Below, piece by piece: positions 43,999 to 50,740 of a stretch of 64,000 nt of DNA. The stretch spans positions 2,108,001 to 2,172,000 of the forward strand of contig JBCBSM010000001.1 of the NCBI GenBank assembly GCA_039819165.1. The letters run 5' to 3'. Made by a program: the position numbers and the translations under genes. Source of the stretch: Planctomycetota bacterium (GTDB lineage: Bacteria; Planctomycetota; Phycisphaerae; Phycisphaerales; UBA1924). Under the pieces are notes generated by a model. That model was not told the origin of the DNA and did no database searches. It saw only the letters and a list, made by a program, of their open reading frames with translations. Numbering within the stretch: position 1 is the first letter of the stretch; each line of letters starts with the position of its first letter.

Positions 43999-44562
43999 TC
44001 AGCCGTCGCCGCCGGGGTCGCGATCGTCGCGGAGCTGAGCCAGCAGCGGGTGGTCCCGCTTGCGCCGCAGCGCCTCGATCACCGTGGGCGGCACCATCGT
44101 CTCGAGCACCGACGGGTCCTTGCCCATCGCCGCGATCTGGCGGATCAGGCTCGAGCTGATGTACGCGAAGCTCTCGCCGGCGACCATGAACGCCGTCTCC
44201 AGCCCCGCCAGCTGGCGATTGGTGACCGCCTGCTGCACCTCGTACTGCAGGTCCGAGAGGTTCCGCACCCCCCGCAGCAGCGCCGCGGCGCCCACCTCCA
44301 CGGCGAAGTCCACCGTCAGCCCGTCGAAGACCTCCACCCGCACGGGCGCGTGATCGGGCTCGCGGCGGCACAGCTCGTCGACCAGCGTCCGCGCCATCGA
44401 TCGCCGCTCGTCGGCCGAGAACAACTGCGGCTTGGAGGGGTTGTGGCCGATCGCGACCACCAGCTCGTCGAACAGCGTCCGCCCCCGGCGGATGACGTCG
44501 AGGTGGCCGTAGGTGATCGGATCGAACGAGCCCGGGTAGATCGCGATGTGATGCCTCGCCAC
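43999..44562 (-). CDS. coaD: Pantetheine-phosphate adenylyltransferase
   Basis: A 187-residue nucleotidyltransferase of coenzyme A synthesis. The GSFDPITYGH signature, RGVRNLSDLQYE and YISSSLIRQIA motifs are complete. It transfers AMP from ATP to 4'-phosphopantetheine. The start is GTG 44562; TAGCAT (rc of 44568-44573) lies exactly 5 nt upstream and the upstream frame is not conserved. A perfect 22-bp palindrome at 44588-44609 lies just above the promoter position. The length is slightly over the E. coli enzyme because of a charged C-terminal tail. Confidence 0.95.
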   Translation of the reverse strand: MARHHIAIYPGSFDPITYGHLDVIRRGRTLFDELVVAIGHNPSKPQLFSADERRSMARTLVDELCRREPDHAPVRVEVFDGLTVDFAVEVGAAALLRGVRNLSDLQYEVQQAVTNRQLAGLETAFMVAGESFAYISSSLIRQIAAMGKDPSVLETMVPPTVIEALRRKRDHPLLAQLRDDRDPGGDG

Positions 44563-44587
44563 GCCCGATGCTACCAGCACCCCGCGG

Positions 44588-44609
44588 CCGGCACGCCGCG
44601 GCGTGCCGG
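44588..44609. repeat. Perfect 22-bp palindrome upstream of coaD
   Basis: CCGGCACGCCG and its exact reverse complement are directly joined with no spacer. It is centred about 36 nt upstream of the coaD start codon, over the expected -35 region. Possible roles are an operator for a dimeric regulator or a cruciform/hairpin. Which one cannot be told from one site. Confidence 0.55.
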
Positions 44610-44711
44610 GGTGGCCTGTGCGGGTCGTGCGGCCTGGGGCGGGCGGGGAGGCGGCTTCGGCCGACCGAGCGACCGGCGAGATTGCCCCCCGGCCGGGCGG
44701 ATTGCACATTT

Positions 44712-44841
44712 GGGGTGTTGGCCATCGGCCTTAGGCCGTGCCCGGTCGATTCCCGGGGTCCATGTGGGCCCTGCGCCCGGGCAACCGTGGCCGCATCCCC
44801 CTGCACCGGCCCCTCGCCGCTTGGGCGGCGAGGGGCTTTTT
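44712..44841 (+). ncRNA. Candidate structured RNA with three-way junction and terminator
   Basis: This stretch contains no conserved ORF but folds compactly by hand. GGGG 44712-44715 pairs with CCCC 44797-44800, and GGCCA 44720-44724 with TGGCC 44788-44792. Hairpin 1 is CGGCC-TTA-GGCCG (44726-44738). Hairpin 2 is TGCCCGG 44739-44745 with CCGGGCA 44777-44783, extended by GGGTCC 44756-44761 with GGGCCC 44766-44771. A terminator hairpin follows directly. A weak promoter TTGCCC (44682-44687)-17-CACATT (44705-44710) sits just upstream. It does not show the conserved core of SRP RNA, RNase P, tmRNA or common riboswitches. It could be a small RNA or an attenuated leader of the gene at 44953. Confidence 0.5.
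44809..44841 (+). terminator. Strong intrinsic terminator
   Basis: GCCCCTCGCCGC (44809-44820) pairs perfectly over 12 bp with GCGGCGAGGGGC (44825-44836), with a TTGG loop and five Ts after it (44837-44841). No protein gene precedes it on this strand, so it must end either the candidate RNA described above or a leader transcript. Confidence 0.88.
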
Positions 44842-44862
44842 CGTGCCCCGGCGGCACGGCCC

Positions 44863-44891
44863 TTGTGATACACCCCGAGATTCGGTAGTCT
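44863..44891 (+). promoter_or_regulatory. Promoter of the dockerin-tailed gene at 44953
   Basis: TTGTGA (44863-44868) and TAGTCT (44886-44891) are 17 nt apart. Transcription would start about 55 nt before the ATG, just after the preceding terminator. The remaining bases of the 44563-44952 gap hold the coaD promoter side, the palindrome and the candidate RNA. Confidence 0.6.
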
Positions 44892-44952
44892 CTGTGCGAG
44901 CGGCGTGTCATCGCGGCGCGCCAGATCCAACGCAAACGCGGGGGTTAGAGAC

Positions 44953-45624
44953 ATGCGCATCGCATCCATGCTGGCGGCCGGCGCCATCGCCGGGGGCTCC
45001 GTTCTTGCCGACGAGCAGGTCTTCTACGGCGACGCCGACGGCTTCGGCTTCGGCGCGCCGGAGGTCGACGGCGCCCTGTGGCGCGACGGCCTGGGCGGGG
45101 TCTTCTTTACCGACTACCGCGACGCCGGCGATATCGCCTCGGCGCCGATGACCGACTGGTGGGACGCGTTCGGCACGCAGACGTGGACATTCGACTACGA
45201 CCCGAGCGGCATCGACTCGGCCAATCTGCACTTCTACGCCGCCGGTTATGGCGACTTCACCGGCCCGGCGGAGGTCTTCGTGGAGGGCACGCTGCTGGCG
45301 ACGCTCGACTTTGCCGGCCAGTTCCAGACGACCCACATCATCGACCTGGACGTGCCGACCGGCCTCCTCGATGGGTCCACCAGCGTGGAGTTCCGCACGC
45401 CGGACGGCGACGGCTACATCGTCGATTACGCCCGCCTCGATCTCATCGGCGACGACTGCCGCGTCGATCTCGACGGCGACGGCGAGCTCACCATCTTCGA
45501 TTTCCTCGAATTCCAGAACCTCTTCGACGCCGGCGATCCGGCCGCCGACTTCGACGGCGACGGCTCGCTGACGATCTTCGACTTCCTCGAATTCCAGAAC
45601 GAGTTCGACGTCGGCTGCGGCTGA
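44953..45624 (+). CDS. Secreted protein with C-terminal GC-type dockerin repeats
   Basis: A 223-residue protein with a signal peptide (cleavage near SVLA-DE). A beta-rich domain (WTFDYDPSGIDSANLHFYAAGYGDF) precedes a C-terminal dockerin-like module. This module has two EF-hand-type calcium loops, DLDGDGELTIFDF and DFDGDGSLTIFDF, bounded by a Cys before the first loop and a final GCG. Such C-termini are typical of planctomycete exported proteins and probably anchor or sort them. No cohesin is seen in the window. Three more genes with this module lie at 50060-52410. Confidence 0.85.
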   Translation: MRIASMLAAGAIAGGSVLADEQVFYGDADGFGFGAPEVDGALWRDGLGGVFFTDYRDAGDIASAPMTDWWDAFGTQTWTFDYDPSGIDSANLHFYAAGYGDFTGPAEVFVEGTLLATLDFAGQFQTTHIIDLDVPTGLLDGSTSVEFRTPDGDGYIVDYARLDLIGDDCRVDLDGDGELTIFDFLEFQNLFDAGDPAADFDGDGSLTIFDFLEFQNEFDVGCG

Positions 45625-50059: not shown

Positions 50060-50740
50060 ATGCAAAGAACGATCTGCCTGCTCGCCACGCTGGGCCTCGC
50101 CGCCGCCGCGAACGCCCAGACGCTCCGCATCACGCCGGATGAGCCCCTGACCATCCGCTTCCGGTGCCCGGCCGACGCGACGCCGACGCCCGACATGTTC
50201 AACGTGCTGTTCGGCATCACCGAGGCCGGCGGCACCGGCCTCCGCGTCGCGGAGCTGTTCGACGAGGGGACGCTGCTCGGCACCCACAGCCAGGCCCTGT
50301 TCGGCGGCGTCGTCGGGGGGCTGTCGCTCAACCCCGGCATCACTTTCCGCACGGCCAGCTCGCCCTACACCTTCTTCGATGCCGGCGTCATCGACATGAG
50401 CACGCTCATCGACGGCACCGAGGACGGCGTGGTCATCTGGACCATCGCCAGCGGCTTCCTCGAGTTCGACACCGCCAACCTGCGCTTCGACTGGGGCCAG
50501 GGCCTCAGCCCGTCCTCCTACCGCGGCGCCAACCCGGACTGCACGGTCATCGAGGTCTTCGTCGGCAACCCGTGCCGGGCCGATTTCGACGGCGACGGCG
50601 AACTCACCATCTTCGACTTCCTCGCCTTCCAGAACGCGTTCGATTCGGGCGACCTGGCGGCCGACTTCGACGGCGACGGCGACCTGACCATCTTCGACTT
50701 CCTCGAGTTCCAGAACGAGTTCGACGCCGGCTGCGACTAG
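50060..50740 (+). CDS. Secreted protein with GC-type dockerin repeats (paralogue 1 of 3)
   Basis: A 226-residue protein with a signal peptide (cleavage after ANA). A domain of about 150 residues opens RITPDEPLTIRFRCPADATPTPDMFNV. The dockerin-like tail has two canonical loops (DFDGDGELTIFDF and DFDGDGDLTIFDF) and ends GCD. GGGAG lies about 6 nt upstream of the ATG. The same RITPxxPMTIRF domain recurs in the next two genes, so this is a tandem family. The role of the domain is unknown. Confidence 0.82.
   Translation: MQRTICLLATLGLAAAANAQTLRITPDEPLTIRFRCPADATPTPDMFNVLFGITEAGGTGLRVAELFDEGTLLGTHSQALFGGVVGGLSLNPGITFRTASSPYTFFDAGVIDMSTLIDGTEDGVVIWTIASGFLEFDTANLRFDWGQGLSPSSYRGANPDCTVIEVFVGNPCRADFDGDGELTIFDFLAFQNAFDSGDLAADFDGDGDLTIFDFLEFQNEFDAGCD

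Follow-up and report, generated by a model that had tools for sequence, protein, structure and literature searches.

Each of the described systems closest to the locus studied here is cited from an excerpt of its source. In the alpha-r14 RNAs, an ultraconserved CCUCCUCCC is described in the unpaired parts of hairpins whose stems vary (PMC10746234), and in Bacillus the C-rich regions of RoxS and FsrA contact mRNA targets (PMC8216469). CoaR (Ncl1460) of Synechocystis, an RNA of 124 nt, is encoded on the strand opposite to coaD, upstream of that gene, and was reported to regulate it negatively (PMC5319066). The Rhodopirellula-1 motif is a candidate RNA reported in 2010 from Proteobacteria and Planctomycetes, for which the excerpt gives no Rfam number (PMC2864571). 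Among the matches listed from the open-licence literature, no description of a Phycisphaerales small RNA was found.

We analysed a stretch of 64,000 nucleotides of Planctomycetota DNA (the window), in which an earlier note had seen a candidate for a novel structured RNA that is followed by its own terminator. Scanning the window with the 4227 families of Rfam gave no match at the gathering score, and a tRNA/tmRNA search of the window found none. At E <= 10, five Rfam matches were seen in 44560-44960, all far under their cut-offs and attributable to a trivial resemblance to the terminator stem. Folded as RNA, 44705-44845 had an energy of -86.8 kcal/mol against a mean of -67.2 for shuffled sequences (z = -4.26), and none of 200 shuffles was as good; the same was true of the fold without the terminator (z = -3.46; 0 of 200). 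Seven relatives gave z values of -2.06 to -4.24 in this test. The perfect terminator stem with its five T residues, present as claimed and listed with the other features in Table 1, was the sole terminator-like site in 44550-45000 (shuffle mean 0.1). With these results, the covariation among relatives described below and a match to the family model R3 (E 4.5e-6), the window most likely carries a free-standing gene of ~130 nt that belongs to an RNA family not listed in Rfam.

Table 1. Positions in the window of the small RNA gene, its parts and the divergent coaD gene.
Feature	Position	Strand	Remarks
Small RNA gene	44714-44841	+	5' end inferred; 3' end is the terminator T-run
Closing helix P0	GGUGU 44714-44718 / GCACC 44803-44807	+	RNAalifold consensus
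Helix P1	44720-44725/44787-44792	+	Minimum-free-energy fold; invariant in 7 genomes
Hairpin P2	44726-44730/44734-44738	+	Stem invariant in 7 genomes, loop variable
Helix P3	44739-44745/44777-44783, extended by 44747-48/44774-75	+	Two compensatory pairs
Hairpin P4	44756-44761/44766-44771	+	One-sided changes to G-U only; missing in 2/7 genomes
Unpaired C-rich stretch CAUCCCCCU	44794-44802	+	Proposed pairing seed
Intrinsic terminator	Stem 44809-44820/44825-44836, T5 44837-44841	+	Perfect 12 bp
Conserved block TTGCACATTT	44702-44711	+	Possible -10 promoter region; kept beside otherwise variable upstream DNA
coaD (phosphopantetheine adenylyltransferase)	44002-44562	-	Divergent neighbour; name read from translation; homologues found

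Most of the helices drawn in the earlier note, namely P1, P2, P4 and the main stem of P3, were found in the sequence and also form in the minimum-free-energy fold, but its outermost pairing, GGGG with CCCC (44712-15/44797-800), was not kept in six sister genomes. The consensus fold replaces this pairing with P0, so that CAUCCCCCU is left unpaired. P0 itself is weakly tested, with 94.3% of cells paired and no both-sided change in the seven-genome alignment; a helix related to it also occurs in genus g89. The three-way junction that had been described holds for the genus of the window and was seen only there. Promoters placed just upstream of the RNA and, for the next gene, at 44863-44891 were not recovered, the number of sigma-70-like promoters found in 44550-45000 being zero. 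The TTGCACATTT block reads mostly ATGGACATT in sister genomes and is a possible -10 region of the promoter of the RNA.

In a blastn search over 61 genomes, the own genome and each of the six others of the genus gave strong homologues (E 3.4e-27 to 1.8e-12), and the remaining matches were short and weak. In the alignment of these seven genomes, 99.6% of cells formed standard pairs, and five pairs had changed on both sides against a mean of 1.1 in shuffled alignments, a number that none of 500 shuffles reached; the check that the earlier note had asked for, compensatory change among relatives, was thereby passed. Two of these compensatory pairs lie in P3 and three in the terminator; the stems of P1 and P2 are invariant and therefore carry no covariation information. 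All seven rows kept the terminator and the junction base, and G003 and G005, which lack the distal arm, retained the base of P3. The longest invariant run, of 27 columns, takes in the C-rich stretch and continues into the first part of the terminator. Paired cells read on the plus strand contained 18 G-U and no A-C combinations in the genus, and 17 against two in the terminator pairs across the order, which favours the plus strand as the transcribed one. Open frames cross the stretch, which the earlier note had described as having no gene, on the same strand (e.g. 44568-44888, 106 aa), but single-base indels among the homologues, which break any reading frame, and the missing arm argue against a coding region. 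An RNA-level structure is under selection here.

To follow the RNA beyond the genus, models R1-R3 were built stepwise from the window copy; their E-values are rough, owing to a shortened calibration. R1 gave weak matches in other genera of the same family, three of which (L049, L057, L061) adjoin coaD though coaD was absent from the query. A regular-expression scan of coaD-upstream regions, which proved too strict, recovered the core in 4 of 80. These 80 and L069-L098, in total 110 such regions of the family, were then scanned for hairpins; of the 29 loci listed, L100, L114, L123, L148 and L152 were dropped by eye as unrelated hairpins, as were the second matches in L083 and L108. The shared core was found in 24 of the 110 regions, seven of them from the genus of the window, and the other 86 were negative in the hairpin scan. 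This core is made up of a C-rich sequence, AUCCCCUGC for example, and, a few nucleotides on, a strong terminator whose loop often contains GCCUC. Set A4 comprised 24 of 26 core segments (L081 and L054 left out), and R2 was built from 24 cores. R2 was thus trained largely on loci upstream of coaD, and the adjacency to coaD seen within the own family is therefore partly built in.

R2 matched 211 of 400 genomes of the order at E <= 0.1, where chance alone would give about 40. From this list 20 loci of other families were picked by hand for score and genus spread, the position of coaD not being known; L219 and L226 among them are near-identical members of one genus. Most of the 20 read CCCUGGAUCGG, stem, GCCUCCCC, stem and T-run, and none had an Rfam match above cut-off. 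Set A5, with five antisense or extra rows among its 49, was set aside as a whole, and set A6 consists of 34 sequences hand-picked from the other 44. R3 was built from 34 sequences, with 19 of the 20 hand-picked loci included.

At E <= 0.001, R3 matched 102 of 181 order genomes, about 22 of 58 in the own family and 80 of 123 elsewhere in the order when split by listing; the 79 genomes without a match indicate patchy detection. In a sample of 392 genomes from the phylum (E <= 0.05), 37 were matched, 26 of 31 from the order and 11 of 361 others, a split read from the order of listing. Since about 18 matches outside the order would be expected by chance, the family appears confined to the order at this sensitivity. 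In a pattern scan, the named genomes with a match were seven Phycisphaerae/Phycisphaerales/Phycisphaeraceae MAGs, JAHCJI010000001 among them, and one Streptomyces record; the last we take as a chance match. The family occurs widely in the order to which the window's genome belongs, Phycisphaerales according to the named matches. Two copies of the RNA core lie ~3.5 kb apart in one genome (G124:C32, 79339-79396 and 82820-82877), and at another locus the main core match is accompanied by a second, weaker one (L229:1435-1496) ~40 nt away on the other strand.

A single match was present in 100 of the 102 R3-positive genomes. Single copy would suit a divergent 6S or other housekeeping RNA missed by the Rfam models, as would the lack of a 6S match over cut-off in the own genome, judged with a model that passes in only 4 of 14 control genomes. 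We consider this identity very improbable, given a length of ~110-140 nt, a freely changing 5' domain, an intrinsic terminator and predicted folds with no long hairpin bearing a central bubble. 6S RNA (RF00013) was absent both from the gathering scan of the window and from the weak matches in 44560-44960.

The deeply conserved part of the RNA proved to be its 3' module, something the earlier note had not seen. Throughout the order this module consists of an unpaired C-rich stretch followed by a terminator with a usually C-rich loop, and in the order-wide alignment 10 of the 12 terminator pairs covary (47 both-sided cells against 11.7 in shuffled alignments). The unpaired stretch reads CCCUGGAUC in most other-family sequences, and CCCUG or UCCUG precedes the stem in 34 of 34 A6 sequences; exceptions outside A6 are L048, with CCCCCGC for CCCCUGC, and L256, which lacks CCCUG. 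Within A6, all 19 other-family sequences have CCUCC in the 3' half, as do 4 of the 15 from the own family. In the own family, the loop region has CCCC or CCUC in 13 of 15, the two without being from the genus of the window. The terminator hairpin loop of other families carries GCCUCC, which the genus of the window lacks.

The core also occurs in genus g89, at loci that gave no coaD match, together with a g89 5' motif, AGUCCCAGCGG, which G064 shares. These RNAs (L046-L060, L216) also have AGTCCCAGCGG at their start, which is not found in the genus of the window. In the closing helices and terminator of g89 and G064, six pairs show both-sided change where shuffled alignments give 2.4, and 1 of 500 shuffles reaches six; this count comes from the nine-row alignment A7, in which 9% of cells are unpaired and at least two rows that look misaligned (L048, L216) were kept. 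The AUCC part of the C-rich stretch is predicted to be paired in g89, and the stretch is kept while its pairing context varies by genus. That the best-conserved half of the element is the terminator could mean that only a terminator or a DNA-level element is maintained, with no functional RNA. We give this very little weight: no evident gene on the plus strand requires a terminator, sequence is conserved in the C-rich stretch and, beyond the own family, in the loop, compensatory changes occur in the 5' helices of two genera, and G-U far exceeds A-C.

The 16S rRNA of the own genome, recognised by sequence in L284, ends in CUGGAUCACCUCCUUU, and CCUCC is therefore the anti-Shine-Dalgarno core. 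A second likeness to this tail is CUGGAUC, found in 17 of 19 other-family and none of 15 own-family A6 sequences, the own family having a different sequence in its place. With CCUCC in all 19 of the other-family sequences, this may suggest that the 3' module mimics the 16S tail and binds a reader of that tail, such as Era, or initiating ribosomes, with global tuning of ribosome maturation or initiation as the outcome. Recognition of GAUCACCUCC by Era was reported by Tu et al. (2011), as cited in the excerpt of PMC10582724. However, the own family lacks CUGGAUC and has CCUCC in only 4 of 15 sequences, a stem separates the two motifs, and the likeness was noticed after the fact, so that we regard mimicry as quite improbable. 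A more specific version, in which an order-specific copy of the 16S end would titrate a reader of the tail (Era or the initiation machinery) and be tied by position to coenzyme A supply, is a shade more doubtful still.

We examined the genes on either side of the RNA. R3 gave 104 hits in total, 91 of them in genomes with coaD among the matches listed, and for 75 of these 91 coaD was a divergent neighbour no more than 2 kb away (115-920 nt, median 256 nt). Hand recounts among these listed matches put the figure at 62 of 73 once the own family was left out, and at 50 of 60 once the R3-training sequences were left out as well. All 20 of the hand-picked R2 loci contained coaD, one as a contig-edge fragment only. 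The arrangement was different in 16 of the 91 listed hits, which included the f4 genomes G039, G043, G051 and G055, two hits in G124, three hits that lie beyond coaD and converge with it (G194, G213, G255), one directly upstream of coaD and in its orientation (G021) and a second G006 hit that may be false; the others were mostly on different contigs. Some of these misfits could be contig breaks or false hits. No coaD match was found at g89 loci L046, L047, L048, L050, L051, L052, L055 and L060, and in L220 the orientation is reversed, with the RNA directed at coaD. In L070-L075 a conserved TGGTACnATG-like block lies a few bases ahead of the coaD start codon; going by this block, the coaD mRNA could be nearly leaderless.

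The gene past the terminator varies in identity and strand among relatives, with mutL-, dnaK-, recG- and fabZ-like genes and others read from translations. In the window this gene has two dockerin-like repeats, with nif3 further on, and nif3 is the next homologue in some sister genomes. Both the gene at 44953-45624, which had no Pfam match at E <= 0.001, and the reading frame ending at 50740 end in paired FDGDGxLTIFDFLxFQN repeats, presumably EF-hand/dockerin-like. Given the varied downstream genes and the copies elsewhere, the RNA appears to be an independent transcription unit and the leader of neither neighbour. A leader or riboswitch of the downstream gene was rejected on the differing identity and strand of that gene, and a coaD leader or attenuator because the majority of copies point in the direction away from coaD and some are found at other sites.

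The frequent divergent position raises the question of a dedicated coaD regulator, acting like CoaR through the shared divergent promoter region or the coaD mRNA. Synteny within 2 kb in 75 of 91 hits (among the matches listed) speaks for it, as do the 20 of 20 loci chosen blind to coaD (one a contig-edge fragment) and the precedent of CoaR, a reported repressor encoded upstream of coaD on the opposite strand (PMC5319066, excerpt). The resemblance to CoaR is one of size and divergent position (75 of 91, among the matches listed) and not of compared sequence, and unlike the cyanobacterial RNA ours is also found away from coaD. Set against this role are the 16 misfits among the 91 listed matches, the g89 loci without a coaD match and the reversed L220. 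In addition, no CoaR-type pairing with the coaD region was apparent in the seven genus genomes, where duplex energies of the seed with the coaD start were at background (11% to 82% of random windows were as strong). We therefore hold a dedicated coaD regulator to be possible, if rather unlikely.

The reading we prefer, to which we assign a probability of about 0.52, is that of a trans-acting small RNA, encoded by a free-standing gene and independent of Hfq, whose C-rich, anti-Shine-Dalgarno-like segments would pair with G-rich ribosome-binding sites. The RNA would have a promoter of its own, be transcribed in the direction away from coaD and end at the intrinsic terminator. Its fast-evolving 5' domain, a three-way junction in this genus, may serve as a scaffold presenting the unpaired C-rich segment, and in other families the terminator hairpin loop would present a second such segment, GCCUCC. 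Acting in trans without Hfq, these segments would base-pair with G-rich ribosome-binding regions, and initiation would be blocked. Hfq was detected above the Pfam cut-off in none of 21 genomes (one, G038, was sub-threshold), against 5 of 14 controls, which points to Hfq-independent action unless Hfq is too diverged to detect. A purely trans role leaves the frequent retention beside coaD unexplained.

We searched the own genome for the complement of a 10-nt seed, and obtained six sites, including the RNA gene itself, against two for a reversed control. Two of the other five sites lie just ahead of start codons, those of ctaA and a phosphoribosyltransferase gene; the ctaA site was absent in all six sister genomes. 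No conserved target of the seed was found in this own-genome site search, with the ctaA site checked in six sisters. The regions upstream of ctaA/COX15 (heme A synthase) in L293-L298 share palindromes like GAGACnGAGTCTC and an AT-rich block, CAGACAGAAAAA.GTACTGTTT, and together these may possibly form an operator.

Comparison with the known systems places the trans-acting reading in context. Like the alpha-r14 RNAs (NfeR1 and other rhizobial trans-acting sRNAs), the RNA has an unpaired C-rich anti-Shine-Dalgarno motif and stems that vary in sequence (PMC10746234, excerpt). However, alpha-r14 RNAs have three hairpins each with CCUCCUCCC (same excerpt), whereas the RNA described here has one unpaired C-rich stretch and, in other families, one GCCUCC terminator loop; it also comes from a different phylum, in which 21 genomes had no Hfq above cut-off. 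Membership of the alpha-r14/cuckoo type fails on the loop GCCUCC(CC), single-copy in other families and absent in the genus of the window. C-rich regions are likewise shared with RoxS, FsrA and CsfG of Bacillus, a likeness of description and not of sequence (PMC8216469, excerpt). By analogy, the RNA may work as alpha-r14 and the C-rich sRNAs of B. subtilis do. As in trans-acting C-rich sRNAs, the gene is free-standing and intergenic with its own terminator, and the unpaired C-rich segment is conserved (partly paired by prediction in g89). We file the RNA as a new family of intergenic, terminator-ended C-rich sRNAs. Rhodopirellula-1 is likewise a candidate RNA of Planctomycetes, known here by listing and not by compared sequence (PMC2864571, excerpt).

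The RNA has been retained in several families of the order, for which no regulatory RNA was described among the open-licence papers listed, and its 3' module is conserved enough for an Rfam-style family to be built immediately. It raises a testable question, whether anti-Shine-Dalgarno small RNAs operate in these Planctomycetota independently of Hfq, and a second one, why one such RNA so often stays near coaD, the gene of a coenzyme A enzyme.
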